Source: Candidatus Omnitrophota bacterium
Lineage (GTDB): Bacteria; Omnitrophota; Gorgyraeia; Tantalellales; Tantalellaceae
Reading direction: 5' to 3'
Length of the DNA: 32,741 bases
NCBI GenBank assembly: GCA_016783605.1
Contig: JADHWG010000014.1
Coordinates: 1 to 32,741 of the forward strand
Below are positions 1-22,311 of this stretch, piece by piece. Under the pieces are notes generated by a model that was given only the letters and a program-made list of their open reading frames with translations, did no database searches and had not been told where the DNA came from. A program made the translations under genes and the position numbers. The stretch's first letter is position 1. The number at the start of each line of letters is the position of its first letter.

Positions 1-3000
1 AGTATATCCCGCTGAAACTTACCGTGCCTGAAGATACTTGCTCGGTCAGAACCTCGGAGGGTTGTAAAGCCGTAGCCGCGCCGGCGGTGGCGGACAACGT
101 AATTTGAGATGTTGAATCGCCGGTTATTATGTTGCCGTATTGGTCTTGAACCTCTACAGTCGGCTGAGGATTAAACGGCGCCGAAGCAATAGCGTCCATT
201 GCCCCTGTTGGAACCGTGAAGCCGAGTTTACTCGCCGAATCCGTAGTTACGGTTATGTCACCGGTCGCGTCATCGGTCGCTATCGCGTGGGCGGCGGTTA
301 TGGTTCCGACTCCGGTATTGTTTAATGCCGGTTCAAACGTAACGCTTGAAGCGGAAGTTGTAGATAGATCGCCCTCGGTAAGGGTTCCGGTTACGCCCCA
401 GGTTACTGTCGCGTTATTGAGGTACGCATCTCCCGAGGTGTAAGCAACGGCGTAAAGGGTTAAGGTATCATGATTGGCGATGAGAGAATCAGTTGTTATT
501 TCGCTTCCCTCGCCGCCCGCCGCGTCTCGTATAAGAATATGGCCGTCTCCTGGAAGGTTTACGTCAAAGGTATTAGAAACGTCGTCTTCCATTGTATTGC
601 CGCAAGAGTCCTTCGCGCCGGTTATGCTGATATGACACTCTCCGGCTACAGAAGACAGTAGTGTAGTAGTACCTTCCCAAAACGTAGGCTCGGCGTCCTG
701 ATAACCGTTGGTATAGCCCTCTCCGGTTTTAGCGACTATTGTAGCGGTGGTATACGGATCGCTGATGCCGTATTTTATCGTGGGGGCGGTTGCCGTGTCC
801 ATATCCTCGCTGAAGGTTATGGTAAAATCTGTTTCAGTTTCGGCGGGCACAGGGCTCACCGGATCTAAAACCACGCTTGAAACTGTCGGCAGTACGCTAT
901 CTAAGGTGGCGGTAATATCAAAGGCCGCGGTTTCACCGGCTAGGGTGAAGGTAATAACGAAAGTATCGGAGGTTTTGCTGGTATACATGGAGTATTTGTT
1001 CGTATTGGTGGCAGGAACCAGAGGGTCCGGCCATGTGCCGTAAGTTTCGGCATCTGACTTCCCTTGATCCGCAACACCTGTCGTATCGTAATAGATTTTA
1101 GTATTGGCATTATCCCCCCAAGCGGCAAGGACATATTCCGTACTGGCAGACAAACTCACGAGAGAGGAAAACTCACTTGTGTACCAACCAGAGGTTGACG
1201 CCGGAATCGACACCGCGTCTCCTGTTCCGTTATTTAAGCTAAGGTTGGAGTTATAAAGAGCGTATTTAGCCGCGTGAGCGGCACCCGCGTCATCGTTTCC
1301 CAGATAAGCGGTAATACTGCTTACGGTTTCTCCTGATGCGCCTTCCGTAAAAGCCGCGCCCTTGATCACGTTTTCCAAACTAATGGAACTCGCGCCTTGC
1401 GTATCATACCCGAACGTAGGGTCAACAATAACCGGATAAGCCGCGTTGTCCAGCCACTTCCGGTCGATGGTGATCGTAATAGTGCCACTCCCACGCTTCT
1501 GTCCCTCATCCTGAGAAACAGCCCCTTCGTCATCCTGAGCCGCAACCCCTTCGTCATCCTGAGTCGCAACCCCTTCGTCATCCTGAGGAGCAATCCCCCC
1601 GTCATCCTGAGGAGCAATCCCCCCGTCATCCTGAGGAGCTCTGCGACGAAGGACCCCACCCTTTTTCACCTTGCGGGTGGAATCCACTCCCACTTCACCA
1701 CTCACCACCGAATGCTCTATCTTCAAAACCCCCCAAACCCAATCCCCATTTGCGTCTATGATTTTCGGCCGATACACATGAAACGCCTTCCCCGCCTTGT
1801 AATTACCCCCCTGCTTGCTTTCGTGATAGACCGCGTAGGAACCAACAACCTCCTCGGGACGCGCCGCGCCCTGAGCTATTTCTTCTTTACTGAGGGGGCC
1901 TTGATAGTAAAACACCAGCCCCTCCGTTTCTATCGGCAGACTAACCACGTTGGAATCGGGAATCTCCTTAAAAACAACTTCAAACTCAACACCACCGCTT
2001 TCGTTGATGACAAACGTCGAATCAACTTCTTCCCGGCTCTTTTTATAAAAACTGCTCCCTATCTCCGGTGAATCCCAATCTATTTTGCCCGCGTTCCGAG
2101 TTACAGATTTTTTCTCCCGTTTTATCTTATTATCCGGAAATTCCACGCTCAGCGAACTTTCTTCTCCCCATCGCTTTATCTTCGCGTGAGGTCTAAACTC
2201 CATAGTCTCAAAGTCCCCAATTTCAGTTTCGTCTTTTCCGAACATAATTTTGTATCGCTTTTTAAGATTGCGTTTTTCTTCTTCTGTCGGAGTGAACTCA
2301 ATAACTACGGTTCCCGCGCCGCCTCTTGTCGCGCCAGAACCTCCGTTCGCGCTAATTACGCCGTCATAAGTCCGCACGGCTGTTTTGACATAAATCCGCC
2401 CGCCGCCGCCGGCACCGCCCGCGCCGTCAACGTATCCTAACCCGGATTCTTCCACTTCACTCCGTTCAGTGTCAGAATGACGAGAAAAACCGTCATCTCC
2501 CCCATCCGCCGTAATATTTCCCGACCCGTCCAAAACCCCCGTATCTATCAAAATGCTGCCGCCCGCGCCGCCGCCCGCGCCTGCCACGCCGTCCGCGCCG
2601 TCAACCGCGATATCCCCTATCACGGTGAGTTTCCCCGGAACAACAAATCTCACAGCGCCGCCACCCGCGCCGCCGGTCGCGCCGTCAACAACACCACCAC
2701 CACCAGACCCAAAATCAACAGGGTCAAGAGAAGACCCATAACGTATCCCGCCGGAACCGGCATTATTGTCTCCCGCGCCGCCCGCGCCGCCATACCCCGC
2801 GCCGCCCGCGCCCGCGTCTTGATTTCCCGGCTTGCCTCTACCGACACCTTCGCCCGCCGCGCCGCCCGCGCCGCCGGAGAAACCCTTCCCGCTCGCCGAA
2901 ATTAACGCGCCTTCCTCGACAACGAGATTGGTAGCGGCCACCGTCACAGCGACTCCCTGAACGGAAGAATCAATTGTAAGCGCCACGCCGGTTTGAATGG

Positions 3001-3223
3001 TGAGCGTCCCCGTAACTTCCATGTCCGAAGTCCACGTCGTGTCTTCCATAATAGTTACGTCGGTAGGACTGGCAAACCCAACTAAAACTTTGTCAGCCTG
3101 GAAGAATAACGAACACGTCACCAGAAACAAGGTCAGGACAAGCGTCCCGACAATGACACCCAGCGTCACTTTCCCTTGAAAGTCCGGCAGCCCAATTCTA
3201 ATTTTTTTATTATAGGTCTTCAT
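1..3223 (-). CDS. large exported glycine-rich surface/adhesin-like protein, C-terminus truncated by the window edge
   Basis: Reverse-strand frame read from ATG at 3223 (MKTYNKKIRIGLPDFQGKVTLGVIVGTLVLTLFLVTCSLFFQAD...) stays open to base 1. N-terminal hydrophobic segment, GGAGGAGG-rich stretch, then beta-sandwich-like repeats. Missing from the ORF track because it has no stop inside the window. Confidence 0.85.
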   Translation of the reverse strand, partial: MKTYNKKIRIGLPDFQGKVTLGVIVGTLVLTLFLVTCSLFFQADKVLVGFASPTDVTIMEDTTWTSDMEVTGTLTIQTGVALTIDSSVQGVAVTVAATNLVVEEGALISASGKGFSGGAGGAAGEGVGRGKPGNQDAGAGGAGYGGAGGAGDNNAGSGGIRYGSSLDPVDFGSGGGGVVDGATGGAGGGAVRFVVPGKLTVIGDIAVDGADGVAGAGGGAGGSILIDTGVLDGSGNITADGGDDGFSRHSDTERSEVEESGLGYVDGAGGAGGGGRIYVKTAVRTYDGVISANGGSGATRGGAGTVVIEFTPTEEEKRNLKKRYKIMFGKDETEIGDFETMEFRPHAKIKRWGEESSLSVEFPDNKIKREKKSVTRNAGKIDWDSPEIGSSFYKKSREEVDSTFVINESGGVEFEVVFKEIPDSNVVSLPIETEGLVFYYQGPLSKEEIAQGAARPEEVVGSYAVYHESKQGGNYKAGKAFHVYRPKIIDANGDWVWGVLKIEHSVVSGEVGVDSTRKVKKGGVLRRRAPQDDGGIAPQDDGGIAPQDDEGVATQDDEGVAAQDDEGAVSQDEGQKRGSGTITITIDRKWLDNAAYPVIVDPTFGYDTQGASSISLENVIKGAAFTEGASGETVSSITAYLGNDDAGAAHAAKYALYNSNLSLNNGTGDAVSIPASTSGWYTSEFSSLVSLSASTEYVLAAWGDNANTKIYYDTTGVADQGKSDAETYGTWPDPLVPATNTNKYSMYTSKTSDTFVITFTLAGETAAFDITATLDSVLPTVSSVVLDPVSPVPAETETDFTITFSEDMDTATAPTIKYGISDPYTTATIVAKTGEGYTNGYQDAEPTFWEGTTTLLSSVAGECHISITGAKDSCGNTMEDDVSNTFDVNLPGDGHILIRDAAGGEGSEITTDSLIANHDTLTLYAVAYTSGDAYLNNATVTWGVTGTLTEGDLSTTSASSVTFEPALNNTGVGTITAAHAIATDDATGDITVTTDSASKLGFTVPTGAMDAIASAPFNPQPTVEVQDQYGNIITGDSTSQITLSATAGAATALQPSEVLTEQVSSGTVSFSGIY
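1505..1680. repeat. 24-bp tandem expansion of the GTCATCCTGAG repeat inside the CDS
   Basis: About five consecutive 24-bp units, e.g. gtcatcctgaggagcaatcccccc at 1577-1600 and 1601-1624, then a standard repeat arm (gaggagctctgcgacgaaggacccc). Encodes APQDDGGI-like octapeptides on the minus strand. Confidence 0.9.
2441..2483. repeat. GTCATTCTGA-type repeat arm inside the CDS, in frame
   Basis: gattcttccacttcactccgttcagtgtcagaatgacgag, also found at about 5027-5062 and 7235-7271; translates in frame as RHSDTERSEVEES within the 1..3223 protein. Confidence 0.85.
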
Positions 3224-3674: not shown

Positions 3675-3679
3675 ATTTC

Positions 3680-3750
3680 CGGCAGCCTGACAATCCCGCG
3701 TTTCACAGGACTCATAGCTTTGCGCCCTCACATTACTGTAAGTTTGCCTT
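3680..3750 (-). ncRNA. GEMM-I / c-di-GMP-I riboswitch aptamer (copy 1)
   Basis: Minus strand GGCAAACTTACAGTAATGTGAGGGCGCAAAGCTATGAGTCCTG...CGGGATTGTCAGGCTGCC: GGCAAAC, GNRA-capped P2 (CTTACA-GTAA-TGTGAG), GCGCAAAGC core, closing GG(C/T)TGCC. Confidence 0.88.
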
Positions 3751-3787
3751 TTTCGTTTTATACAAAGAACATCGTAATCACCCTTTA

Positions 3788-3827
3788 AGTATACATTAAA
3801 ATGCCAAGCCTGGCAAGTGCCAGGCAC
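3788..3827 (-). promoter_or_regulatory. promoter plus palindromic operator-like module upstream of riboswitch copy 1
   Basis: Minus strand TTGCCA (3816-3811), 17-nt spacer, TATACT (3793-3788); overlapping palindrome GTGCCTGGCACTTGCCAGGC. Confidence 0.7.
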
Positions 3828-7355: not shown

Positions 7356-8840
7356 TCAATCCAAAAACTTCGTCAACTCATCAACATCGCGCGGCTCTGC
7401 CGCGATGGTATTATCCTTGCTACTCACCAGAAACATAACCGGCGTGCTTAATACCGCGTAATCATTAGCAACAGGACCATTTATTCCCCCTTCAACGCTA
7501 AGATGTTTCCATCCGGGGAAATTAGCTATCTCTTTTTCCCACGCGCGCGTTTCTGTTTCGGTTTCATCCAAACTGACAGCGGCAATATCAATTTTTTCTT
7601 TGTTTTCCGGATGATTTTGCCATTGCTTAAGTTCTTTCGCCAAGTTCCGGCAAGACACACAGTCACTTGACCAGAACAAAAGCAGTTTATGCGCCGTGGC
7701 CCCCTTCCATTTATGAAATTCGAAATTGTTACCTTCGTTATCACTCGCGGCAAAATCGGGAGATACGGCTCCGGGAAATAACCTTTTCATCCCTTCCAAC
7801 CGTTTAATTATTTGTTGTTTTTTTTCCGCGTGACAATTCGGATTATTGATATGTTTTTCCAGAACTCTCATTCCTTCCGGGATACCGTAGGTTTCGTACC
7901 CTTTGTAAAAATAATCCACCATCCACCCGTAGACCTTGGGATTGCCTCGAGACGCCTTTTCACAGGCAACGCGCCCGGCCTCGGCAAAAAGTTCGCTACG
8001 GGATTTTTCCGTTACGGCTTGCATAGAAAATAACCTCACATAACCATTCATCAGCATGGATAGTTCACGAGAACGTAGAATCAGAGGATCGTTAAAATCA
8101 ATTCCTTCGAAATAGTTTTGTATAAGCCTCGCGTGCTGTTCATCCGGAGTACCGCCCCATTTCATCTTCGGGATATGCTGAAACCGAAACAATCGGCTCA
8201 CATAAAGGTTTTGATACTTTTTGGATTGAGCGTTCACCCAAGCGTTATATTCCACTCTACGCTCTTCAAATTCTTTAACCGCCCGCGCGTAAAACTTTGA
8301 TTTCGGACGGTCGTAGGTTAATAAAAGTTGTTTAAGAAAATCTACAGGCGCGCGGCGCGCGCGGTTTTCTTTCATAAAAGTGCTGTAAGCGGTATTTTCG
8401 GTTTCTTTGGCGTCGAATTTGGTCTTTTCGGAATTGTTAATATACGGCGGGTCAATAGATAGCTCAATGTTCTGTTTGTTGATAAAAATGTTTCTCTCCG
8501 ACGGGTAAGGGTGGTCAGTCTTTTTGCCGCGATAGTCAAGCCTAAGCAGAAACTCTCCCGGCACATATTTAACGGGTATTTTAAGAACCGCGGTCTCGCC
8601 GTCCTTGACATCCTCAACCACGTCAATAGCGGCATCGGTTTTTATTCCGTCAAAAGGCGTTACGGAAATTTTCGAGCTGTATACCCCCTGCAAATGAACG
8701 GTAAGAAGCCGCACTTCTGCGCTTTCATCATCCGCGAATAAACAACGCCCGGGCAAAACAACACCTGCTATCACACACATCCAAGCCGCAACCGCCAAAA
8801 GTTTGCGAATCATTCTTCCAATCCTCTTCATTTGTTCCAT
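7356..8840 (-). CDS. exported TlpA/ResA-like thioredoxin-domain protein
   Basis: N-terminal signal-like segment; C-terminal KLLLFWSSDCVSCRNLAKELKQW with CVSC motif and VLSTPVMFLV cis-Pro region. Exact start uncertain. Confidence 0.8.
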   Translation of the reverse strand: MEQMKRIGRMIRKLLAVAAWMCVIAGVVLPGRCLFADDESAEVRLLTVHLQGVYSSKISVTPFDGIKTDAAIDVVEDVKDGETAVLKIPVKYVPGEFLLRLDYRGKKTDHPYPSERNIFINKQNIELSIDPPYINNSEKTKFDAKETENTAYSTFMKENRARRAPVDFLKQLLLTYDRPKSKFYARAVKEFEERRVEYNAWVNAQSKKYQNLYVSRLFRFQHIPKMKWGGTPDEQHARLIQNYFEGIDFNDPLILRSRELSMLMNGYVRLFSMQAVTEKSRSELFAEAGRVACEKASRGNPKVYGWMVDYFYKGYETYGIPEGMRVLEKHINNPNCHAEKKQQIIKRLEGMKRLFPGAVSPDFAASDNEGNNFEFHKWKGATAHKLLLFWSSDCVSCRNLAKELKQWQNHPENKEKIDIAAVSLDETETETRAWEKEIANFPGWKHLSVEGGINGPVANDYAVLSTPVMFLVSSKDNTIAAEPRDVDELTKFLD

Positions 8841-9296: not shown

Positions 9297-10493
9297 TCAT
9301 CTTTGTGAACGCAATACAAATTTTTTATATCCATCCGTAACAAAAACCAAATTCCACCACCATTTTAAAAATTGATTCTTAATCATTTTTTTTCTTATTC
9401 TGTGTGTCTTGTAATGTTTCATTACTCCAAGATAGGAGTTCATACTACTTACAAACTGATTCTCTTCTTCATTGGTTGGTCTGCGATTCAAAATAACTTT
9501 GTTTTGTTTTCGCATCGCATGGTAAAAACTGCCTTTAGTGCGGTTGGAAATATATGTACGGTAAGGTTTTATTACCGCGCCGAGAAATAAAAATCCTGTC
9601 TTGTAATGTTTTATTTTTGTTTTGTCGGGATGCAAAATAAGTTTTTCATTTGCTTTTAAATAGCCTGTAATCTTCGGCAAAGCGTCTAAAAGATAACCTT
9701 TATCAGGATGAATAACAAAAAAATCATCTACATAGCGACCATAGTATCTAAACGCCATAACTTTCTTCATCCAATGGTCAAAATCATTCAAAAAAACATT
9801 GCCAAAAAGCTGGCTGGTAAGATTGCCGATTGGTAAACCGCAACCTTCCGAAGTATGAAACAAACTTTTATTAGCGGGAAGCCCATCCCAATCGGAACGC
9901 GAGCCTTTAATCCTGCAATTATCGGCAGGATTACGAAATATGGTTTTTTTCAATAGAAAATCAACCATGCCGGTATCAAATGGTATCTTCTTGTTCAATA
10001 AGGCGCATTTTTGATATTCTGTTCGCAATACGCCGTTCACTTTGTTGTACAACAATTCTCTGTTGATGCTCATGAAATAACCTGAAATATCCATTTGCAT
10101 GATGTAACACTCTTTTTTATAGTTTTGAGAACAAGAACGTAAAAACTTTGCCGCTCTTTGAATCCCGGCACTTGTTCCTTTGCCTTTACGACACGAATAG
10201 CAGTCGTAAATAAAGTATTTTTCAATTATTGGGCTGAGATATTGGAATAAAAGGTGATGTACCACTCTATCCCTAAAATCCGCCGCGAATATTTCGCGTT
10301 TTACAGGTTTGTTCACAATAAACGCCATTTCACACAAAGGTTTGTACACGCGCGTTTCTATCTCATTGGACACCTTAAAAATTTCACGTTCAAAATTCAA
10401 TTCGAATTTCAATTGATTGATGGTGTTTCTTTTATTTCGACGCGCGTTGTAGTAGCCCCGAAACAAATCGGTAACTAATCGCGTATTATCCAT
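9297..10493 (-). CDS. reverse transcriptase, diversity-generating retroelement type
   Basis: RT motifs MQMDISGYFMSI, GLPIGNLTSQLFGNVFLNDFDHW and YGRYVDDFFVIH; adjacent Avd-like ORF and a matching TR/VR pair. Confidence 0.95.
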   Translation of the reverse strand: MDNTRLVTDLFRGYYNARRNKRNTINQLKFELNFEREIFKVSNEIETRVYKPLCEMAFIVNKPVKREIFAADFRDRVVHHLLFQYLSPIIEKYFIYDCYSCRKGKGTSAGIQRAAKFLRSCSQNYKKECYIMQMDISGYFMSINRELLYNKVNGVLRTEYQKCALLNKKIPFDTGMVDFLLKKTIFRNPADNCRIKGSRSDWDGLPANKSLFHTSEGCGLPIGNLTSQLFGNVFLNDFDHWMKKVMAFRYYGRYVDDFFVIHPDKGYLLDALPKITGYLKANEKLILHPDKTKIKHYKTGFLFLGAVIKPYRTYISNRTKGSFYHAMRKQNKVILNRRPTNEEENQFVSSMNSYLGVMKHYKTHRIRKKMIKNQFLKWWWNLVFVTDGYKKFVLRSQR

Positions 10494-10869
10494 TGCCGGT
10501 TACCTTTGTTTTATCATACGTCACGCCTTTATTTATTGATTTTTTCCAACCGCTAAGCTGTTTACTTACGTTTTCTATCAGCATGTTGAGAGAGATCATT
10601 CTCTTGATGCTTATTTGCCGTAAATCATGCAATAACCGTATAAGCAAGCGCACCGCTTCTGTATTCTCCATACACCGATCTATATGGATTTTTTTCTCTC
10701 GTCTCGAATTGACTTTATAGATTTGCAGTAACAATTCAAGAGTTTCATTTTTCAGTTTTTCTCCAAGAGTATATTTGTATTCGCGTGACAAACCGGTTGT
10801 CGTCTTACAAATTTCTATCAACAGATCATACGCCTTTTTAAAAACGGGTAAAGTGTTATACAATGCCAT
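10486..10869 (-). CDS. avd: DGR accessory variability determinant (Avd-like four-helix bundle protein)
   Basis: MALYNTLPVFKKAYDLLIEICKTTTGLSREYKYTLGEKLKNETLELLLQIYKVN...; short helical protein overlapping the RT start by 8 bp. Confidence 0.88.
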   Translation of the reverse strand: MALYNTLPVFKKAYDLLIEICKTTTGLSREYKYTLGEKLKNETLELLLQIYKVNSRREKKIHIDRCMENTEAVRLLIRLLHDLRQISIKRMISLNMLIENVSKQLSGWKKSINKGVTYDKTKVTGNG

Positions 10870-10889
10870 AATTTGCTATTTTACCGCCC

Positions 10890-11350
10890 TCTCGTCGTTC
10901 TGCACCCACCCTCCGTCATTCTGAGCCCGAAGGGCGAAGAACCCCACCCTTTTTCACCTTGCGGGTGGCCCCCCACTCCCACCTCGTCATTCTGAGGAGG
11001 TACGACGAAGAATCCCATTCGTTAAGAACAGATCCTTCACTCCGCTCAGAGCCTGCCCTGAGCTTGTCGAAGGGATGACGAGCGTGGAGCTGGATAACGA
11101 GCGTAGAGCAGAATGACGAACAAGAGCGCACAGGATGACGAGCGTAGAGCTGGATGCGAGCGTGGCGCGTCATTCCACCCCACTCATTTCCACTCCCACC
11201 GTCGGCATCCTCAGGAGCCCCCCTTTTTTTCGTCATTCTGAGGAGCTTCATTTTTTTCGTCATCCTGAGGAGCTTGCGACGAAGGACCCCATCCTTTTCC
11301 ACCTTGCACGTTGTCCCCCACTCCCTCATCCTTTTCCACCTTGCACGTTG
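10890..11350. repeat. GTCATCCTGAG repeat cluster between the DGR TR and avd
   Basis: Arms plus gagcttgtcgaagggatgacg variants; central ccttttccaccttgcacgtt segment. Confidence 0.88.
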
Positions 11351-11443
11351 CAACACGGGCACATGCAATGTGCCCCTACATCCCACATCCCCCGCGTGTT
11401 TCAACTCCACGGTGGTGAAAATTTTGGCAGTATTGTTTCATAG

Positions 11444-11624
11444 TCGCTGAGGCAACGCACACTAAAGCCGTTGGCCTTATTGTTGTTATTCACGTTGCTG
11501 TTCGTGCTGTTGAAGTTCAGTTTGTACCCGTTGGTAGTACTGTTCTGGGTGCTGCTCCAGTAGTTGCCGTTGACACCTCTGTTGTTCAGCGCACCATCGC
11601 TGTTGTCGAGATAGCCAGCAGCAT
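11444..11624 (-). other. DGR template repeat (TR)
   Basis: 181 bp aligned without gaps to 12435-12615. Minus-strand reading is Asn-codon rich (NNRGVNGNYWSSTQNSTTNGYKLNFNSTNSNVNNNNKANG). All 15 differences are at coding-strand A. Confidence 0.97.
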
Positions 11625-11746
11625 ACCAGCCAATAAGTTGCCACTTTACATGTGAATACAAGCAGCTAAGCATGTATTCATCTTTTTTTTGCTTTCGGAA
11701 ATCGATATTCATTCCTAAAGCGGGCAACCCGACTATAATCCGCGCT

Positions 11747-12364
11747 CTAACCGAAACCGATAGTCTCGGTTACTCCGGCGTTTCCCATCCCTGCCAAATC
11801 TTTTTGTAATCGCGTAACAAACTGCATAGTTTCTATAAGAGTATTGTTTGCAACTTGGTAAGTCCGCAGCTTTTGAATAATCTCAATTTCTTTTACATCT
11901 AAACGTTTTGCATGTTCCCTTTTTTCGTCATTCTGAGGAGCTCCCCCACTCGTCATCCTGAGCCCACTCCCCCTCGTCATCCTGAGCCCGAAGGGCGAAG
12001 GACCCCACCCATTTCCACCTTGCACATTCGCCCCCACTCCCCCCACCTGCTTTTGCCAGTTTTCGTAACTGCCGTTAGCGGTCATTCCCGATATGATAAC
12101 TTTTTTTTCACCTTCATCGCTGATGCCATAGCCCTTTTCTAATGCTTTTTTCTTCACTTTTGTCAAGCTTTGCTCGGGAAAACCGCAGTAGTAGACATAT
12201 TCATTCACCTTTTTTACCCACTTTTTGCGCACTTTGTAAGAAAAAAGAGACGTTACCATAAACATCGCGGAGCGATTATACGCCCGAAAAAACATCCCTT
12301 CTTTCAACAAATAAACGGCATTTTTATTCCTCAATTCCTGCTCTATTATTTCCCTTACGGTCAT
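11747..12364 (-). CDS. MutS-N-terminal-like DGR accessory protein with an in-frame palindromic repeat insertion
   Basis: MTVREIIEQELRNKNAVYLLKEGMFFRAYNRSAMFMVTSLFSYKVRKKWVKKVNEYVYYCGFPEQSL resembles the MutS mismatch-recognition domain; located between VR and TR. Start 12364 preferred over 12418. Confidence 0.7.
   Translation of the reverse strand: MTVREIIEQELRNKNAVYLLKEGMFFRAYNRSAMFMVTSLFSYKVRKKWVKKVNEYVYYCGFPEQSLTKVKKKALEKGYGISDEGEKKVIISGMTANGSYENWQKQVGGVGANVQGGNGWGPSPFGLRMTRGSGLRMTSGGAPQNDEKREHAKRLDVKEIEIIQKLRTYQVANNTLIETMQFVTRLQKDLAGMGNAGVTETIGFG
11928..12047. repeat. GTCATCCTGAG repeat inserted in frame in the MutS-like CDS
   Basis: cgtcattctgaggagctcc...cgaaggaccccacccatttccaccttgcacattcgccccc; translated GVGANVQGGNGWGPSPFGLRMTRGSGLRMTSGGAPQNDEK with no stop. 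Confidence 0.9.
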
Positions 12365-12396
12365 TAGCATTCCTCTCTTTTTCCAAAAAAAATCGA

Positions 12397-12409
12397 CCCG
12401 CTTCGCGGG
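12397..12409 (-). other. short hairpin downstream of the VR (possible DGR homing hairpin and/or terminator)
   Basis: CCCGC-GAA-GCGGG followed on the minus strand by TCGATTTTTTTT; begins 25 nt past the VR 3' boundary. Confidence 0.6.
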
Positions 12410-12430
12410 ACATCTCAAATAATCAAATTG

Positions 12431-13501
12431 TCAATCGCTGAGGCAACGCACACTAAAGCCGTTGGCCTTACTGCTGTTATACACGTTGCTGCTCGTGCTG
12501 GCGAAGTACAGTATGTACCCGTAGGTAGTACTGCTCTGGGTGCTGCTCCAGTAGTGGCCGTAGACACCTCTGCTGTACAGCGCACCATCGCTGTCGTCGA
12601 GATAGCCAGCAGCATGTAACACTAAATCAGAGCCGAATGCCCAACTCCAAGTGGTTCCGACATCGACATTAGTATATTCACCGCTGGTTGGCAGGCGCCA
12701 GCCCGCGCCAAGTAGTAGCGCGCAGGGATCAAGAGCTGGATTCCAATTAGAAGCATTACTACCTGAATCAGTATAACTTTCACTTTCGTTAATGGAAGTG
12801 ATAGTCCATGCCGGAGACGGCCCGACAGCGTATCCTTGTTTTCGGTTAAACTGCCAATACCAACCCGCGGAAGCGGCAGTAGCATCATCAACCGCGGTTG
12901 CCTGCTGGGTCGCGCCGAGGTTTCGGGTGATCCAGCACTTTTCAGCTCCCGAAATGGATGTGACTACGGTTCCGTACGTAATGTCTACCGTGACAGGCGA
13001 AATACCATCGCCGGCGGTGTGGCTAACAGTGATAGGGTCTCCGGGGGCCCACACATACTCGCCCGCCGTAAGCGTTACCGTCAAGGTCTGCTCTCCTTCG
13101 GCCGTGGTAGAGCTTGGCGCGGTAAATTGCAGATCAAACGTCTGTCCCGCCGCCGCGGTTAAACTTGCAAGTTCGATTCCACTGCCTACGTTGGTAATAG
13201 CGTCCGACCAACTGCCCGAGGCGTCGTGTTTTAGCACAAAAATGTCCGCCCCCGCACCGGCACCCGGACTCAAGGAGGCACCAGTCACCTTGATATAGAC
13301 TGTTGACGTCACATCACCCTCGTTGGTCGCGGTAAAGGTGTCACCTGTTGTCGTCCTCGCGAGACTCATCCCCACTGTCCCTATTGCCCACGGACCGCCG
13401 GTAATCGACACCGCCCGCCCCGCGTAAGCCGTGGCAGAGACTGCGAAAACAAAGACCAACCCCGTCAATCCCATTTTTATTACCCTATTGAACAGCTTCA
13501 T
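12431..13501 (-). CDS. DGR target: exported protein with C-terminal FISUMP-type (C-type-lectin-like) domain
   Basis: Signal peptide MKLFNRVIKMGLTGLVFVFAVSATAYA; C-terminal CWITRNLGATQQATAVDD...GAGWRLPTSGEY...YWSSTQ...GFSVRCLSD; the VR is its last about 60 codons. Confidence 0.93.
   Translation of the reverse strand: MKLFNRVIKMGLTGLVFVFAVSATAYAGRAVSITGGPWAIGTVGMSLARTTTGDTFTATNEGDVTSTVYIKVTGASLSPGAGAGADIFVLKHDASGSWSDAITNVGSGIELASLTAAAGQTFDLQFTAPSSTTAEGEQTLTVTLTAGEYVWAPGDPITVSHTAGDGISPVTVDITYGTVVTSISGAEKCWITRNLGATQQATAVDDATAASAGWYWQFNRKQGYAVGPSPAWTITSINESESYTDSGSNASNWNPALDPCALLLGAGWRLPTSGEYTNVDVGTTWSWAFGSDLVLHAAGYLDDSDGALYSRGVYGHYWSSTQSSTTYGYILYFASTSSNVYNSSKANGFSVRCLSD
12435..12615 (-). other. 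DGR variable repeat (VR)
   Basis: 181 bp, 15 differences from the TR, all at TR adenines (coding strand: 7 A>G, 6 A>T, 2 A>C). The 36 bp at the coding 3' end are identical to the TR (IMH-like). Confidence 0.97.
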
Positions 13502-15527: not shown

Positions 15528-18008
15528 TTATTCCACTATCAAAGACCCGCCTTTACCGGGGTCAAATCCTTCGCCGCCTTTAACGCATATCGTTCCTTTT
15601 ATTCCTCCACTCGCGGCTTTGAGATGAATTCTTCCGCCGCCTCCGCCACCTCCCGTTAGGCCGCCGTAACCGCCTTCGGCGGTTATCACGGCTTTATCGC
15701 TAAAAAACTCGTCAGCCGTTAAGTATACGCTTCCGCCCGCGCCGCCCGCGGATTCATATTCGGTTTCATTACCGAACATTTTTCTGTCTTCTCCGTTGGC
15801 GGTAAGGTATCCGTTAATTTCAAAATCGCCGCGCGCTTTAAGTGTGATGCTTCCGCCGCCGGCTCCGCCCGCGGCATACCATCCGCCACTTCCGCCGGAA
15901 CCCAGATCGCTCGGCGCTCTTTTCGCGCCGTATCTTTCCATGTCTATGTCCGCGTCTTCTTTTTGCGTCTTGGCACGGCCGCCTTTACCTCCGTAAGACC
16001 CGCCTAAAGCGCCCATATCGAGATATTTTCCGGCGCCTCGGCCTTTCGCGTCTGCACGGATGTTTCCGCCGGCGTATCCTTTTTCATCAGCCGTTATTAC
16101 GCCTTCCGGTTTTATCGTAATGTTCTCGGCGGAGAAATTTAGTACGTATGCCTTGACGTCTTCGTTTTCTCTGTGCGTCAATATGCCGCCTCTTTCCACC
16201 ATAAGATCTCCCACGATCGACTGCGGGTTATTGTTTGCCTGGATAAGTTCCCCGCCTTTACGAACGACTATGTCTCCTGAAGCGGGGTTTATGTTGTGAA
16301 TAAGAATGAGTTTGGACGTATGCTCGCCCGTGCCGTCACCGATTATGAGTTTTTTGAAACTGATGCCGCCGGAAGTTTTAATTGTTTCGTTGCCGGCGAT
16401 GGTTACAACCGCGGAAAGATCTTGATACGCTCTTTCTTCGGCGATAATTTCTTCCGCCGTCGCGGGAGCCTCTTCGCCTTCCGAGAGAGAGACCAGCCCT
16501 TCATACGGTTCAACCGTGAACGCGCCGTCCGACAAATCATATATTTTGCTTTCGTTCGCGTCGGAAATCTTGATCACGAGATCGTCCGCCTCTAAATCGC
16601 TTGGTATCGTCCACGCGTAAATTCCGCTGTTTTCTGTTTTTGTAATTTTTGTGAATGTTTTTAGACTGGATTTTTTTGCGTATTCAAGGGTTACCGGATA
16701 GAAAAAATCGTATTCCAGCGCGGACCACATAATGTCTTTCCTGGTTCCCGCCTGCCAAGTTTCGCCGCCATTGGGCACTATCATGGTGATAATCCCGGGG
16801 GCGTAATCCAGTTCCAAAAGTTCCAGTTCTGATTCCTGTATTCCGCGTTCAAATCTTACTTTCGCTTTAGGCTGTTTCCCCGTCTTGAAATCTTCGAGTG
16901 AAACGTAGTAATATGTGTCCGCGTCGCAGTCTTTTTTATACGTTAGTCCGTTATCCGCCGAAACGTCCACGGAAATTTCATCGCCTTCCCATGCCACGAC
17001 GAGTATACGTATATCAAACGCCTCCAATAGAGGCGAGGTTACGTATTGCCCGTTATCGTATCCGTCCAAAAGTACGACGTTTCCAAGCGCATTCAAACCT
17101 ACCTTCTCAAAAGACGGCGTTATCGCCTCTTCCTGTTTGGGCTCATCGCTTGTGTCGGGTTCGGGCACAACTTCTACAAATTCCTTAAGCCATCCGCCGT
17201 TTTCATCCTGTTCACTAAAAACATCTTCAACGCGCGAGGCGTCTTTCGCGTCCACATTTCCGTAATACATATAGATGCTGACCCCGGCGGCGGGTATCTC
17301 GGGCACTTTTACCCAGATCTTCGCGGTACGCGCCGGGCTCACGCCCGTCATCGTCTCACGATAATAGGCGAGTATCGTTTCCCCGTCCGCCGCGGTAAAC
17401 CGGATATCTTCCAGACCTTTCAGCGTATTGCCCAGACAATTGACGTCGTAGTCTTCCGCTTCGAGCGTCTCTCCGACCGCGATATCGACTTGATAGTTAT
17501 ACAGCGTCCGTGAGGAGCCGGTAATGTGAATTTTTTTTCTGTATTTGAGTCCCGAAAGCTGAGGTTCTCCGAATGTAGCGACAATACCGCTTGTATCCGC
17601 ATAGGAAATCTTAACCTCGCTCAAGGTGCTTCCCGTGCCAAGCTGTGCGCGCCACTTCAGGCGGTCGCCTTTCGTGAATCCTGCCTTGAGCGGCACACCG
17701 TTAATCACTTTGTAATAGTGACTTCCCCCGTCAACGCTTACTTCAAGCGTAACCTCGCCGGTAAACACCCAGTTGGCGGTTATCTCTTCTACGAGCCCGT
17801 CCGTTGGCACACTCTTATAAACGACATAGGTGGACCCTGAAATCGCGGGCAAAGAAAAGTCCCCGTTTCCGTCAGCTCGCCAAAAAATAGACGATGTATA
17901 CGTTTTTATCTCCGCCTCCGCCGAAATCGGCCACGCCTGAACAAAAGCGAAAACCAAGATTATCAGTCCCATTTTTATTTTTCCTCTGAGCGTCTTCATA
18001 ACTCTCAC
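15528..18008 (-). CDS. exported surface protein with DUF2341 domain and glycine-rich C-terminus
   Basis: Signal peptide; YRKKIHITGSSRTLYNYQVDIAV...ARTAKIWVKVPEIPAAGVSIYMYYGN (DUF2341-like); ITMIVPNGGETWQAGT; C-terminal GGYGGLTGGGGGGGRIHLKA. Confidence 0.85.
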   Translation of the reverse strand: MRVMKTLRGKIKMGLIILVFAFVQAWPISAEAEIKTYTSSIFWRADGNGDFSLPAISGSTYVVYKSVPTDGLVEEITANWVFTGEVTLEVSVDGGSHYYKVINGVPLKAGFTKGDRLKWRAQLGTGSTLSEVKISYADTSGIVATFGEPQLSGLKYRKKIHITGSSRTLYNYQVDIAVGETLEAEDYDVNCLGNTLKGLEDIRFTAADGETILAYYRETMTGVSPARTAKIWVKVPEIPAAGVSIYMYYGNVDAKDASRVEDVFSEQDENGGWLKEFVEVVPEPDTSDEPKQEEAITPSFEKVGLNALGNVVLLDGYDNGQYVTSPLLEAFDIRILVVAWEGDEISVDVSADNGLTYKKDCDADTYYYVSLEDFKTGKQPKAKVRFERGIQESELELLELDYAPGIITMIVPNGGETWQAGTRKDIMWSALEYDFFYPVTLEYAKKSSLKTFTKITKTENSGIYAWTIPSDLEADDLVIKISDANESKIYDLSDGAFTVEPYEGLVSLSEGEEAPATAEEIIAEERAYQDLSAVVTIAGNETIKTSGGISFKKLIIGDGTGEHTSKLILIHNINPASGDIVVRKGGELIQANNNPQSIVGDLMVERGGILTHRENEDVKAYVLNFSAENITIKPEGVITADEKGYAGGNIRADAKGRGAGKYLDMGALGGSYGGKGGRAKTQKEDADIDMERYGAKRAPSDLGSGGSGGWYAAGGAGGGSITLKARGDFEINGYLTANGEDRKMFGNETEYESAGGAGGSVYLTADEFFSDKAVITAEGGYGGLTGGGGGGGRIHLKAASGGIKGTICVKGGEGFDPGKGGSLIVE

Positions 18009-18030
18009 CTCTGTTTAGTTCGTCAATTCG

Positions 18031-18960
18031 TCAGTTTTCCGATTTTTCCACTTCACGTCTCTTTCTCTCTCGATCCAATCTTTTTGTCGTAGCGCGATAG
18101 TATGACACTAAATCCGCGCGATACTTCGCTTCCAGATCCTGTTTAAGCGCGTCTTCTCTCTCCTGAAACATATCTTCCACTTTCCCTTCCACTTTTTGAC
18201 TCGCTGCGAAATAGTAGTATGTGACCGCGCTTAAAGCGATGATCACTGCCGCGCCCGTCACAATAAAGACCTTCTGAAACCGGCTTCGCAGAATCATCCT
18301 TTTTCCCGTCAGGTTTTCCGCCTTATTCTCTTTTTCGAATTCATCTTTAATCCGCCGGACAAATTCCGCCGACCCGATAATCCCGCTTCTCTGCACTTTT
18401 TTATCCAACGCTTTTAGATCCGAAGGCTCGGCTTCATCTACGAATCTTTTGTACAACCTCACCTGTTCGCCGGGAATAACGGAAAACTTCTCCAACACTT
18501 CCTTCGCGTCCCCTTTCGCCTCCAAATAATGCGAATAACTCGACCACCGGTAGTCTTCGGCTTTGGAGCCGGCGTTTAATTTCTCGGGAACAAGATGAAT
18601 ATAGCGCGTCAATTCCGTCAAGTAGGTATCTTTTTCAACAACTGCCGCCTTAAACCGTCCTTTAAAAAGATGTCCGCTTCTTTCGTAGCGGCGGTTGTAA
18701 TATTTTGTGTATGTCGAATTCATCGCGTGCATAATTTCCGAAATCGTCGTTTCCGGCACAAGTTCGAGCAAAAGATGGATGAATTCCGGCATAAGCACGT
18801 ATGAAAAAAGTTTGAAGCCGTATTTTTCCTTGTATCTGGAGAGTAAGTCCACGTACGCGTCTTTATCCGCGTCGGCGCGAAAAAGCAAATTCACCTGACT
18901 ACCGTACGCGGTAACCAAGTACACCCCCTGCTCAATGTGTATTCTCGGAAGTCTTGCCAT
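18031..18960 (-). CDS. RAYT/Y1-transposase-like protein with degenerate HUH motif and C-terminal TM helix plus coiled coil
   Basis: MARLPRIHIEQGVYLVTAYGSQ...YGFKLFSYVLMPEFIHLLLEL...SGHLFKGRFKAAVVEKDTYLTELTRYIHL...YRWSSY; then FIVTGAAVIIALSAVTYYYFAAS TM and charged helix. 22 bp upstream of the DUF2341 gene. Confidence 0.88.
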   Translation of the reverse strand: MARLPRIHIEQGVYLVTAYGSQVNLLFRADADKDAYVDLLSRYKEKYGFKLFSYVLMPEFIHLLLELVPETTISEIMHAMNSTYTKYYNRRYERSGHLFKGRFKAAVVEKDTYLTELTRYIHLVPEKLNAGSKAEDYRWSSYSHYLEAKGDAKEVLEKFSVIPGEQVRLYKRFVDEAEPSDLKALDKKVQRSGIIGSAEFVRRIKDEFEKENKAENLTGKRMILRSRFQKVFIVTGAAVIIALSAVTYYYFAASQKVEGKVEDMFQEREDALKQDLEAKYRADLVSYYRATTKRLDRERKRREVEKSEN

Positions 18961-19030
18961 CTCTACATCTCCTTCTTATCAATCCCGCGGGACCACATCT
19001 CATGTGCCCAATCAAAAGTCACACACCAAC

Positions 19031-19056
19031 CCGTAGGGGCACATTGCATGTGCCCC
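19031..19056. repeat. CGTAGGGGCA palindromic repeat in the leader of the RAYT-like gene
   Basis: ccgtaggggcacattgcatgtgcccc. Confidence 0.8.
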
Positions 19057-19058
19057 AC

Positions 19059-19095
19059 AAAAAAAAACGCCCGGTAACTTACACGGGCGTTTTTA
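19059..19095 (-). terminator. intrinsic terminator of the riboswitch platform
   Basis: Minus strand aaaaacgcccgtgtaagttaccgggcgttttttttt. Confidence 0.8.
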
Positions 19096-19103
19096 AATTC
19101 TCT

Positions 19104-19175
19104 CGGCAACCAGACAATCCCGAATTCCCCCGGGACTCACGGCTTTGCGCCCTTACATCACTGCAAGTTTGCCAT
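19104..19175 (-). ncRNA. GEMM-I / c-di-GMP-I riboswitch aptamer (copy 2)
   Basis: Minus strand GGCAAACTTGCAGTGATGTAAGGGCGCAAAGCCGTGAGTCCCGGGGGAATTCGGGATTGTCTGGTTGCCG; GNRA loop GTGA. Confidence 0.9.
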
Positions 19176-19219
19176 TTTCTTTTTATACATGTCAAAGGTC
19201 TCTTTCCTGCCACTCCTAA

Positions 19220-19259
19220 AGTATACACCATATGGGGAAGCCTGGCAAGTGCCAGGCAC
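19220..19259 (-). promoter_or_regulatory. promoter plus palindromic operator-like module
   Basis: Minus strand TTGCCA-N17-TATACT with overlapping GTGCCTGGCACTTGCCAGGC. Confidence 0.7.
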
Positions 19260-19569
19260 TCGCCGTTTGAATCTTTCCGATTTTCAGCACCCTCATTAGT
19301 AAATACACCACCGTGGATTTTGCACTCCTTGTGCAACTCCCGTTCCCAAATTTCACCATGAACCAAATTGCTTCCTGCTACCTGTCGAATTTATGCAACT
19401 CCTTTAAATATAAAGAGTGCCAGTCATACCCCACAGCTAATTTTTCTCAATTTTTACAGTTCCCTTTACCCCTTTTCGCCCGACAATAACCTTCAACTTC
19501 TCTACATCTATTCCCCCAAAAACATCCCCACCGTGACACTCCACAACTTTATTTACCTTTTTTCTTTCT

Positions 19570-19878
19570 AATCCCCACGTCCCCTCTTACCCATACGGCC
19601 ACATTGCCCGCACCCCAATTCAATCTCCACATATCCAAAATCCTACGGCCACATCACATGCGCCCTCCCAATTCAATCCCCACGTACCCATTCACCCGTA
19701 CGACCACATTGCATGTGCCCGACTTCAATCCCCACGTACCCATTCACCCGTACGACCACATTGCATGTGCCCCCAATTCAATCTCCACGTATCCCCTTTA
19801 CCCGTAGGGGCACATTGCATGTGCCCAAATTCAATATCCACGTATCCCCTTACCCGTAGGGGCACATTGCATGTGCCC
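19570..19878. repeat. about six tandem copies of a 52-bp CGTAGGGGCA-type unit, progressively degenerate toward the left
   Basis: Unit aattcaatctccacgtatcccctttacccgtaggggcacattgcatgtgccc; leftmost copies carry cgtacgaccac or atacggccac in place of cgtaggggcac. Confidence 0.85.
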
Positions 19879-19944
19879 TAATAACACCTATCGATATAAA
19901 ATTCAAAAAATTTTCCTCTGCCAACGTAATCGTAAGACATCAAG

Positions 19945-19985
19945 AGTATACACAACCATTCCACCCCTGACAAGTGCCAGGCACC
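19945..19985 (-). promoter_or_regulatory. distal copy of the promoter/operator module
   Basis: Minus strand TTGTCA-N17-TATACT with gtgcctggcac upstream. Confidence 0.6.
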
Positions 19986-20227
19986 TTTTTCCATAACTCC
20001 TCTATTCCCCCCTTCACAACACACTACCACCATATACACCAACACACCAACCCGTAGGGGCACATTGCATGTGCCCACGAGGTTACCCGCAACCTTGTAA
20101 TAACGGGCACATGCAATATGCCCCTACGAGATAAAATTCAAGGTTGCCATTCCCAAATTTTCAAATATCAAACCCTTCTCTCCCACTTCCTTCGTCCTCA
20201 ATGAATAATATGCGCTCACATCTCTCG

Positions 20228-20314
20228 AAATCCCCCTAACCCCCTTTGCTAAAGGGGGAACTGAAACCCCTCCGCTCTTCCCCCCCTTAGAAAAAGGGGG
20301 CCGGGGGGATTTTA
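20228..20314. repeat. inverted repeat AAATCCCCC...GGGGGGATTT
   Basis: aaatccccctaaccccctttgctaaaggggg ... cccccttagaaaaagggggccggggggatttt. Confidence 0.8.
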
Positions 20315-20319
20315 ACCAC

Positions 20320-21243
20320 CTATTCAACCTCCCGTCTCCTCCGTTCCCGATCCAGCCTCTTCGTCGTCGCGCGATAATACGACACCAGATCCGCCCGGTA
20401 TTTCGTTTCCAAATCTTGTTTAAGCGCCGCCTCTCTCTCCTGAAACATGTCTTCCACTTTGTCTTCCACTTTTCGGCTCGCCGTGTAGTAGTAATATGTA
20501 ACCGCGCTTAAAGCGACGATCACGGCTGTGCCGGTTATAATAAAGACCTTCTGGAACCGGCTTCTAAGAACCAACCTTTTCTTCGTCACCTTTTCCGTCC
20601 GGTTCTCTTTCTCAAATTCGCCCCTAATTTGCTCAATGAACTCCGCCGACCCGATGATCCCGCTTTTCTGCACCATTTTGTCCAGCGCTTTCAGATCCGA
20701 ATCTTTGGCTTCTTCAACAAACCTTTTGTACAACCTCACCTGTTCTTCAGGAATAACGGAAAACTTCTCCAACACTTCTTTCGCGTTCCCTTTCGCCTCC
20801 AGATAATGCGAATAACTCGACCACGCGTAATCTTCGGCTTTGAATCCCGGATTTCCGATACCGGGAGCAAGATGAATGTAACGCGTCAAATCCGCCAAAT
20901 ATGTGTCTTTCTCAACAACCGCCGCCTTGAACCTCCCCTTGAAAAGATGACCGCTTCTCTTGTAGCGGCCGTTGTAATATTTCGTATAAGTCGAATTGAC
21001 AGCGTGCATAACTTCCGAGATCGTAGTTTCAGCCATAAGTTCGAGCAGAAGATGTATGAGAGACGGCATAAGCACGTATGAAAAAAGCTTAAACCCGTAT
21101 CGCTCTTTGTATTTGGTCAACAGATCCACATAAGCATCCCGGTCAGGATCGCCGCGAAAAAGCACATCCTCCTGCCCGCCGCGCGTGGTGACCATATACA
21201 ACCCCTGCTCAACATGTATTCTCGGAAGTCTCGGCATCTCCAA
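20320..21243 (-). CDS. paralogous RAYT/Y1-transposase-like protein with degenerate HUH and C-terminal TM plus coiled coil
   Basis: Near-collinear with 18031-18960; YVLMPSLIHLLLEL; FIITGTAVIVALSAVTYYYYTAS TM. Confidence 0.88.
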   Translation of the reverse strand: MEMPRLPRIHVEQGLYMVTTRGGQEDVLFRGDPDRDAYVDLLTKYKERYGFKLFSYVLMPSLIHLLLELMAETTISEVMHAVNSTYTKYYNGRYKRSGHLFKGRFKAAVVEKDTYLADLTRYIHLAPGIGNPGFKAEDYAWSSYSHYLEAKGNAKEVLEKFSVIPEEQVRLYKRFVEEAKDSDLKALDKMVQKSGIIGSAEFIEQIRGEFEKENRTEKVTKKRLVLRSRFQKVFIITGTAVIVALSAVTYYYYTASRKVEDKVEDMFQEREAALKQDLETKYRADLVSYYRATTKRLDRERRRREVE

Positions 21244-21324
21244 CTCTCCTTTTTTTCAAAATTCTAACCAAAATTCCACCTCGTAGATGGAATCCCTAAA
21301 TCCCTCTACCAACCCCCAATAACC

Positions 21325-21362
21325 AAAAAAAAACGCCCATGCAAGTTGCACGAGCGTTCTTA
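21325..21362 (-). terminator. intrinsic terminator of the riboswitch platform
   Basis: Minus strand aagaacgctcgtgcaacttgcatgggcgttttttttt. Confidence 0.78.
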
Positions 21363-21369
21363 TATTCTC

Positions 21370-21441
21370 TCGGCAACCAGACAATCCCGATTTTCCCGGG
21401 ACTCACGGCTTTGCGCCCTTACATCGCTGTAAGTTTGCCAT
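21370..21441 (-). ncRNA. GEMM-I / c-di-GMP-I riboswitch aptamer (copy 3)
   Basis: Minus strand GGCAAACTTACAGCGATGTAAGGGCGCAAAGCCGTGAGTCCCGGGAAAATCGGGATTGTCTGGTTGCCG; GNRA loop GCGA with perfect 6-bp stem. Confidence 0.9.
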
Positions 21442-21485
21442 TTTCGTTTTGTGTATGTCAAAGTACGTTTTTCTACTACCCCTAA

Positions 21486-21526
21486 AGTATACATCATATA
21501 GGGAAGCATGGCAAGTGCCTGGCACC
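21486..21526 (-). promoter_or_regulatory. promoter plus palindromic operator-like module
   Basis: Minus strand TTGCCA-N17-TATACT with ggtgccaggcac overlapping. Confidence 0.7.
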
Positions 21527-21890
21527 TGCCGTCCGTTTTTCCCGGTTTTTCAAGCATTGAACCAACAATAGCATCACCGGGAATTTCACACCGAAAATGT
21601 AATTCCCGTTCCAACGATTTCCCATGAACCAAATTACCCACTGCTACCTGTCGAATTTATGTAACTCCTTTAAGCATAAAGAGTGCCAGGCACGTCCCAG
21701 AGCTGATCCCAACCAATTTCCCCTGTTTTCTCTGCCCATTTTTGCCTGACAATTACATACAATTCCCACCCATTCATCCATCAAAGAACCGCCAAAAAAG
21801 TCACTTCACAACTTTATCTACCTTTTTTATCTTTAATGTCCGTAGTGCCACAATCCGGACAACAAATTCGGCGTTAATTTGAAATACGTA

Positions 21891-21966
21891 GGGGCACGGC
21901 ATGCCGTGCCCTTTCTGTCACACAAATCACCGACTCCATGAGGGCACGGCGTGCCGTGCCCCTACG
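21891..21966. repeat. CGTAGGGGCACGGCATGCCGTGCCC palindromic repeat unit
   Basis: Two inverted palindrome arms around ctttctgtcacacaaatcaccgactccatga. Confidence 0.8.
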
Positions 21967-22037
21967 AGATTAAACTGACCAAAAATCTGTAACGCATAAC
22001 TTGCTAAGCAAAACGCCACACAATACCTATCACTAAG

Positions 22038-22080
22038 AGTATACCCAACCACATCAAGCCTGGCAAGTGCCAGGCACTTT
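22038..22080 (-). promoter_or_regulatory. distal copy of the promoter/operator module
   Basis: Minus strand GTGCCTGGCACTTGCCAGGC with TTGCCA-N17-TATACT. Confidence 0.6.
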
Positions 22081-22311
22081 TTTATTTTTCGTGCTCAAAC
22101 TTCGCCTAAAACCAAAAATCTCAATTTCACCTCCCCTCCCACCCAAACAACCTCGTAGGTTGTTTTCATTGCATTGTTATCCGCGACAAACACAACAACC
22201 TCGTAGGGGCACGGCATGCCGTGCCCTTTATCACACGAAACACCGATTCCATAGCGAAGCAATTTGATCAAGATTTGTATGTTTTGAATTTTACGGGTAA
22301 AATAGGGACAT

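Follow-up and report, generated by a model that had tools for sequence, protein, structure and literature searches.

Membrane-bound one-component regulators of the ToxR/CadC type combine a cytoplasmic DNA-binding domain, one transmembrane (TM) helix and a periplasmic domain, with sites located next to the −35 box. RAYT (TnpA_REP) genes, which encode Y1 HUH proteins related to IS200/IS605, are flanked on both sides by inverted, abundant repetitive extragenic palindromes (REPs) with a GT(A/G)G head (PMC2817692), and cyclic di-GMP (c-di-GMP)-I (GEMM-I) riboswitches control adhesins in Bacillus thuringiensis (Bc2 and cap; PMC4933901). For the phylum Omnitrophota, Seymour et al. (PMC10066038) described a 'symbiotic' locus, thought to serve predation or symbiosis, that comprises a giant open reading frame (ORF), F-type ATPase genes and type IVa pilus genes, without an account of how the giant ORFs and ATPase/pilus loci are controlled. 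Here we analyzed a stretch of 32,741 nucleotides (the window), which is contig C20 of a 1.65-Mb Omnitrophota genome (G000) carrying five c-di-GMP-I aptamers, where one such riboswitch precedes the gene of a RAYT-like protein with a predicted TM helix, termed RAYT-TM, followed by a secreted surface protein. Judged by sequence, it is practically certain that this unit of aptamer, terminator, RAYT-TM and surface protein is conserved in Omnitrophota, and RAYT-TM is probably a membrane-tethered DNA-binding regulator of the operon. In a literature search that mostly did not extend to subscription journals, neither RAYT-TM nor a c-di-GMP riboswitch in front of a RAYT gene was found to have been described.

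Compared with the systems above, the locus shares with Bc2/cap an aptamer with a terminator before a surface adhesin gene, the aptamers scoring above the gathering threshold in sequence and structure (RF01051/RF03167), but differs by an intervening transposase-derived gene, often giant outputs and a second, palindromic control site. RAYT-TM resembles RAYT/TnpA_REP proteins in its Y1_Tnp domain and fold, which among solved structures comes closest to TnpA_REP in complex with a REP hairpin (4er8), and in being linked to a palindrome. It differs from them by a C-terminal TM helix, the frequent loss of catalytic residues, among them the first HUH histidine in the window copies, and the riboswitch in front. 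Its palindrome also differs, as it lies 5′ of the gene only instead of on both flanks, is low in copy number, lacks the GTAG head and is phased like a double-stranded DNA site. The predicted plan and the −35-adjacent sites are like those of ToxR/CadC regulators, although the putative DNA-binding part is a Y1 transposase fold and not a winged helix, and there is no homology.

A conserved unit of riboswitch, RAYT-TM and surface protein

An earlier note on this DNA had placed a promoter-operator, a riboswitch, a RAYT-like membrane protein and a DUF2341 surface protein at 15528–19259 on the minus strand. All of these were recovered, as a consensus promoter and matches to RF01051, Y1_Tnp and DUF2341, and the unit reads as follows:

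19240–19259, minus strand: operator palindrome GTGCCTGGCACTTGCCAGGC in the promoter of RAYT-TM copy 1, with the −35 box TTGCCA forming part of the right half; the copy abuts the −35 as in loci L084, L045 and L047
19220–19248, minus strand: promoter TTGCCA-17-TATACT, a consensus match only
19102–19183, minus strand: c-di-GMP-I riboswitch aptamer 1 (RF01051, 60.2 bits, cut-off 35)
19059–19091, minus strand: intrinsic terminator of riboswitch 1, 3′ of the aptamer and absent from the earlier note's list
18031–18960, minus strand: RAYT-TM copy 1, with the Y1 domain at about residues 1–122 and a TM helix by hydropathy at about 231–252
15528–17999, minus strand: secreted surface protein of 823 aa with DUF2341 and a Kre9_KNH-like domain

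RAYT-TM copy 1 matched Pfam Y1_Tnp with an E value of 3e-14, and the Kre9_KNH match of the surface protein was slightly below the Pfam cut-off. As a bare consensus, TTGCCA-17-TATACT was found once versus 1.6 times expected by chance; the arrangement of palindrome, −35 and −10 is repeated at the window's other aptamers and in other genera. The close same-strand spacing of the two genes was as proposed, but the gap of 22 bp, which assumes a start at GTG 18008, probably has to be corrected to 31 bp, as ATG 17999 with the Shine-Dalgarno sequence GAGGTG is the more likely start. Since even 31 bp is too short, a separate promoter of the surface gene is unlikely to fit, and the sole sigma-70-like promoter found in 17800–19400 is the one 5′ of aptamer 1.

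Relatives of the same length and with a TM helix were sought in 285 genomes of the phylum and in the GTDB contig set, yielding two overlapping locus sets whose counts are not summed. Upstream aptamers were scored with a covariance model built from the relatives' aptamers (loci L083–L121 and L125, n = 40). A same-strand aptamer was found 5′ of RAYT-TM in 38 of the 40 loci, usually 90–280 bp from the start codon (exceptions L083 and L084), and a same-strand large secreted ORF, almost without exception truncated where the available DNA ends, stood 3′ of it in 34 of the 37 readable ones. Comparison of these loci thereby bears out the gene order for which the earlier note had proposed to search related genomes. 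Between RAYT-TM and the large ORF we often observed one or more small secreted proteins, frequently with 4-bp stop/start overlaps; these overlaps, the kept pairing and the sole promoter before the aptamer argue for the single operon proposed earlier. The suggestion that the surface protein is the conserved output is likewise supported across Omnitrophota, with the refinement that this output is usually giant and DUF2341 optional.

Three loci seemingly without an aptamer at first (L035, L043 and L053) contained, on reading, enlarged aptamers with terminators, which a local model found in the matching GTDB loci L106 and L117 and which were below the cut-off in genome G151. Chance pairing was rejected, as about five aptamers per 1.8-Mb genome correspond to <0.1% per locus within 400 bp on the right strand, whereas the pairing was seen in nearly all loci; the thirty RAYT-TM genomes hold only 1 to 14 aptamers each. 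None of the other Y1 relatives searched (L122–L146 except L125) had a same-strand upstream aptamer. One of these, L126 from the Firmicute Acidaminobacter hydrogenoformans, carries a c-di-GMP-I-like aptamer at 8652–8735, about 2.2 kb 3′ of a 302-aa Y1 protein with intact HUH, which is probably a coincidence. Three records are named otherwise (L088 and L103 as Planctomycetales, L119 as Lokiarchaeota); all fall within the RAYT-TM clade on the tree and may be mislabelled or contaminating contigs.

RAYT-TM has a predicted membrane helix and often lacks its catalytic residues

RAYT-TM forms one clade, on one side of a branch with a Shimodaira–Hasegawa-like approximate likelihood ratio support of 93. 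AlphaFold models (mean predicted local distance difference test scores of 87.6 and 86.0) comprise the Y1 domain, a helical linker and one long helix including the membrane segment. Hydropathy analysis identified the C-terminal TM helix in 69 of 71 entries, one of the two others being a truncated ORF, versus none of 16 motif-picked controls. The predicted plan is thus a cytoplasmic Y1 domain, one TM helix and a periplasmic C-terminus, the latter being either a short coiled coil (window type) or a β-barrel of about 100 residues (long type), which is expected in the periplasm because one TM helix follows the cytoplasmic domain. In the long-type protein L042:1501-2694, the barrel (residues 286–396) had as its best match the cyclic-dinucleotide receptor Cap15 (Z 11.1, root-mean-square deviation 3.8, 100 residues), with other small barrels scoring nearly as high; a cyclic-dinucleotide-binding role is not claimed, the barrel being predicted periplasmic.

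In copy 1 the HUH motif is broken by loss of the first histidine (EFIHLL; F60, H62), with Tyr120 retained, and across the window's RAYT-TM copies this histidine is replaced by F60 or L60; the other five Y1 proteins of the genome have HUH and Tyr intact. Across the family, HUH and Tyr were intact in 25 of 54 members compared to 30 of 32 other Y1 controls (Fisher p 5e-6, an optimistic value as the rows are related). These controls were taken without a motif filter, because a motif-picked set is circular for catalytic residues. The catalytic state changed at least eight times on the RAYT-TM tree with the genomic context kept. Cleavage appears dispensable, because HUH/Tyr is often lost while fold, TM helix and palindrome persist. 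RAYT-TM would thus be a case of a bacterial HUH transposase turned membrane protein, whose catalytic site is no longer needed and whose lineages stand at different stages of loss, bearing on the question of what RAYTs do for their hosts.

A palindromic site linked to RAYT-TM

Going beyond the earlier note, we identified a conserved palindromic site associated with the RAYT-like gene, GTGCC(A/T)GGCAC. The window's genome has six exact copies of GTGCCTGGCAC (either strand), all of them on this contig; three belong to the promoters of the contig's three aptamers, and the other two riboswitches of the genome (contigs C5 and C34) are without the palindrome. Besides the unit above, the following features are involved:

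21506–21525, minus strand: operator palindrome GTGCCAGGCACTTGCCATGC, 5′ of aptamer 2
21369–21449, minus strand: c-di-GMP-I riboswitch aptamer 2 (RF01051, 63.5 bits)
20320–21237, minus strand: RAYT-TM copy 2, 80% identical to copy 1, with its own aptamer and without a surface gene directly 3′
3808–3827, minus strand: operator palindrome GTGCCTGGCACTTGCCAGGC, 5′ of aptamer 3
3677–3757, minus strand: c-di-GMP-I (GGC) riboswitch aptamer 3 (RF03167, 63.7 bits)
2–3223, minus strand: large secreted protein of 1074+ aa, truncated where the contig ends; preceded by aptamer 3 with no RAYT gene between
19965–19984, minus strand: extra operator copy, its −35 position followed after 17 bp by TATACT; no aptamer found
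22058–22077, minus strand: extra operator copy, with TATACT behind and no aptamer found
21683–21693, minus strand: lone GTGCCTGGCAC copy, 5′ of aptamer 2

The surface gene starting at 3223 had correctly been noted as standing behind another riboswitch without a RAYT-like gene; it runs off the contig, and it has the same palindromic site. L084 has the same constellation: a second aptamer there is preceded by the site and followed, with no RAYT, by a surface gene.

Over the 40 loci, TGCC(A/T)GGCA occurred 47 times in 23.7 kb 5′ of RAYT-TM versus 9 times in 549 kb elsewhere (~120-fold), and in 30 genomes most exact copies adjoin RAYT-TM with few or no others, G208 being the exception. Non-TM Y1 relatives outside the clade have no palindrome close by. 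By contrast with this low-copy motif, which has no GTAG head, the GTAG-tagged REPs near 19033–22212 are of a genome-wide kind, unlike the palindrome in sequence and not specific to RAYT-TM genes: GTAGGGGCAC was counted 319 times in G000 (reversed control 0), distributed across many contigs and present in the window for example at 19033, 19804, 20054, 21888 and 22203.

These data bear on the possibility that RAYT-TM still is a transposase processing single-stranded DNA that spreads the palindromes as a REPtron-like mobile unit, merely lodged behind a c-di-GMP switch before adhesin genes. The Y1 fold, the 25 members with HUH and Tyr kept, the dispersed doublets of G208 described below and the definition of RAYT genes through their link to palindromes (PMC2817692) would all suit such a unit. 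We nevertheless consider it unlikely, as the catalytic state changed repeatedly in a constant context, the palindromes stand almost only 5′ of the gene, in low copy and not on both flanks, the motif has no GTAG head, the genome's REPs are of a different sequence, and the sites show helical phasing and −35 contact, as follows.

Paired copies are spaced by 19–23 or 30–32 bp and never by 24–29 bp (R 0.88 at 10.5 bp, using one value per cluster). A copy abuts the −35 in the window, L084, L045 and L047, with its centre near −41 to −43, and lies one turn further upstream in L107. A sigma-54 promoter was also considered, since GG-N10-GC is readable in the palindrome, and rejected in view of a poor −12 element and of a good sigma-70 −10 located 17 bp downstream of the −35. 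In most loci the palindrome lies in the transcribed leader, often 15–60 nt 5′ of the start codon, where RAYT-TM could bind it as an RNA hairpin beside the ribosome-binding site and control translation. Such post-transcriptional control is very unlikely in view of the copies of the window, L084, L045, L047 and L107, which are at or 5′ of the −35 and untranscribed from that promoter, and of a spacing that follows DNA turns. Promoter and leader copies within one locus tend to share a lineage-specific variant. The phasing, the −35 contact, the lineage variants and the promoter copies without RAYT point to a double-stranded DNA site read by a trans-acting protein that varies along with the RAYT-TM lineages, and RAYT-TM is probably this protein.

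Several observations weigh against RAYT-TM as a double-stranded DNA-binding regulator. The targets of known TnpA_REP proteins are hairpins of single-stranded DNA rather than duplex palindromes (PMC8266576), and many RAYT-TM members retain the full active site. G208 has 36 palindrome copies, mostly dispersed as REPIN-like doublets about 25 bp apart. The loci behind the phasing test are related and their spacings fall into two clusters, and a period of 11 fits about equally. Palindrome variants include GTGCCAGGCAC and GTACCACGTAC, the latter being a different palindrome carried by four loci of one subclade, and in L084 no copy stands directly 5′ of RAYT-TM. As a separate observation on G208 (L156, L157, L103), some palindrome copies are located inside the extended stem of c-di-GMP-I aptamers.

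In the regulatory mechanism that we favor, the c-di-GMP-I riboswitch with its terminator would control transcription into the RAYT-TM gene and the surface protein gene behind it. The cytoplasmic Y1 domain would bind the double-stranded form of GTGCC(A/T)GGCAC at one of two places, next to the −35 or within the leader that separates the terminator from the start codon, and might activate or repress, and the periplasmic coiled coil or β-barrel could report on the envelope or on adhesin export. RAYT-TM would thereby autoregulate its own operon; in the window's genome its control would extend to the surface gene behind the other riboswitch.

Giant surface proteins and the ATPase/pilus locus

On long contigs, the giant ORFs behind RAYT-TM measured 4,111 to 5,078 aa, 8,471 aa (G182) and at least 12,673 aa (G094). 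Their domains include DUF2341, Kelch, Laminin_G_3 and Kre9_KNH, and their repeated modules are matched by the window's 823-aa protein. The giant-ORF ends of L178, L182, L183, L185 and L187 have a common C-terminus, a coiled coil followed by 'NIA(N/H)KPVTQTW(F/Y)E(F/Y)', and these giants are followed by a ~270-aa secreted protein that carries 'NPSK..(Q/K)'.

In all five genomes with a sufficiently long RAYT contig (G013, G094, G182, G224 and G242), same-strand genes of a non-respiratory F-type ATPase follow. In G182 and G242, giant and ATPase have PilB, PilC and pilin-like genes behind them, whereas in G013, G094 and G224 a giant or long downstream stretch is accompanied by the ATPase. In the window's genome the large gene is cut at the end of C20, and ATPase genes with a PilB-like gene behind are found on contig C60. 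By its gene content, the locus of the five genomes is the published symbiotic locus (PMC10066038), into whose giant ORF and ATPase genes their RAYT-TM operon leads. In the main text of that publication, the terms riboswitch, c-di-GMP and transposase are absent, and no RAYT-TM or palindromes are mentioned at the head of the locus.

The same-direction ATPase and, where read, pilus genes, together with the membrane anchor and a Y1 fold that handles single-stranded DNA, would also be consistent with RAYT-TM being a membrane-anchored structural or single-stranded DNA-handling part of the surface/pilus machinery, for example in DNA uptake, with an unrelated regulator binding the palindrome. This is quite improbable, given that the lineage-specific palindrome variants track RAYT-TM subclades and that the palindrome of the window's genome is confined to the contig encoding RAYT-TM, as suits a regulator encoded there.

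A c-di-GMP switch, a candidate dedicated regulator and its site are now placed at the head of the giant-ORF/ATPase/pilus loci, so that a laboratory strain can serve to test how this uncultured phylum controls its attachment to hosts. RAYT-TM may help to control the attachment of these presumed predators to other cells. More tentatively, and with somewhat more doubt than confidence, we propose that a clade of transposase-derived, membrane-anchored regulators in Omnitrophota might couple c-di-GMP, via the riboswitch, and envelope state, via the periplasmic domain, to the expression of giant adhesins and the ATPase/pilus locus by reading a double-stranded palindrome inherited from REP-like elements.

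Riboswitch terminators and switch direction

Most aptamers have a terminator about 10–15 nt 3′, which mostly does not overlap with the folded aptamer. Many leaders have a terminator 3′ arm complementary to the aptamer core GGYAAAC(U), with matched changes in core and arm: one clade combines GGTAAACTC with GAGTTTACC, other clades GGCAAACT with AGTTTGCC. The mean run was 6.0 for own pairs of core and arm, compared to at most 5.88 in 300 swaps. Antiterminator pairing as a general rule was rejected, as W2 and W3 do not fit. As the core/terminator-arm pairing needs an unfolded aptamer, c-di-GMP would favor termination; with W2 and W3 not fitting, the leaders give a faint hint that c-di-GMP lowers read-through as an OFF switch. 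The core GGCAAAC keeps the G linked to c-di-GMP specificity. That G marks specificity for c-di-GMP rather than cGAMP.

Further features of the contig

The large secreted protein at 2–3223 (minus strand) has no Pfam match, and its gene contains interspersed in-frame repeats reading HSDTERSEVEES and APQDDEG, as if inserted and retained as coding sequence. The contig also carries a diversity-generating retroelement at 9297–13501 on the minus strand, comprising a reverse transcriptase (9297–10493), bAvd (10486–10869), a template-like repeat within 11401–11727 and a C-type-lectin-like target (12431–13501). All 15 of the 15 mismatches between its repeats are at template adenines.

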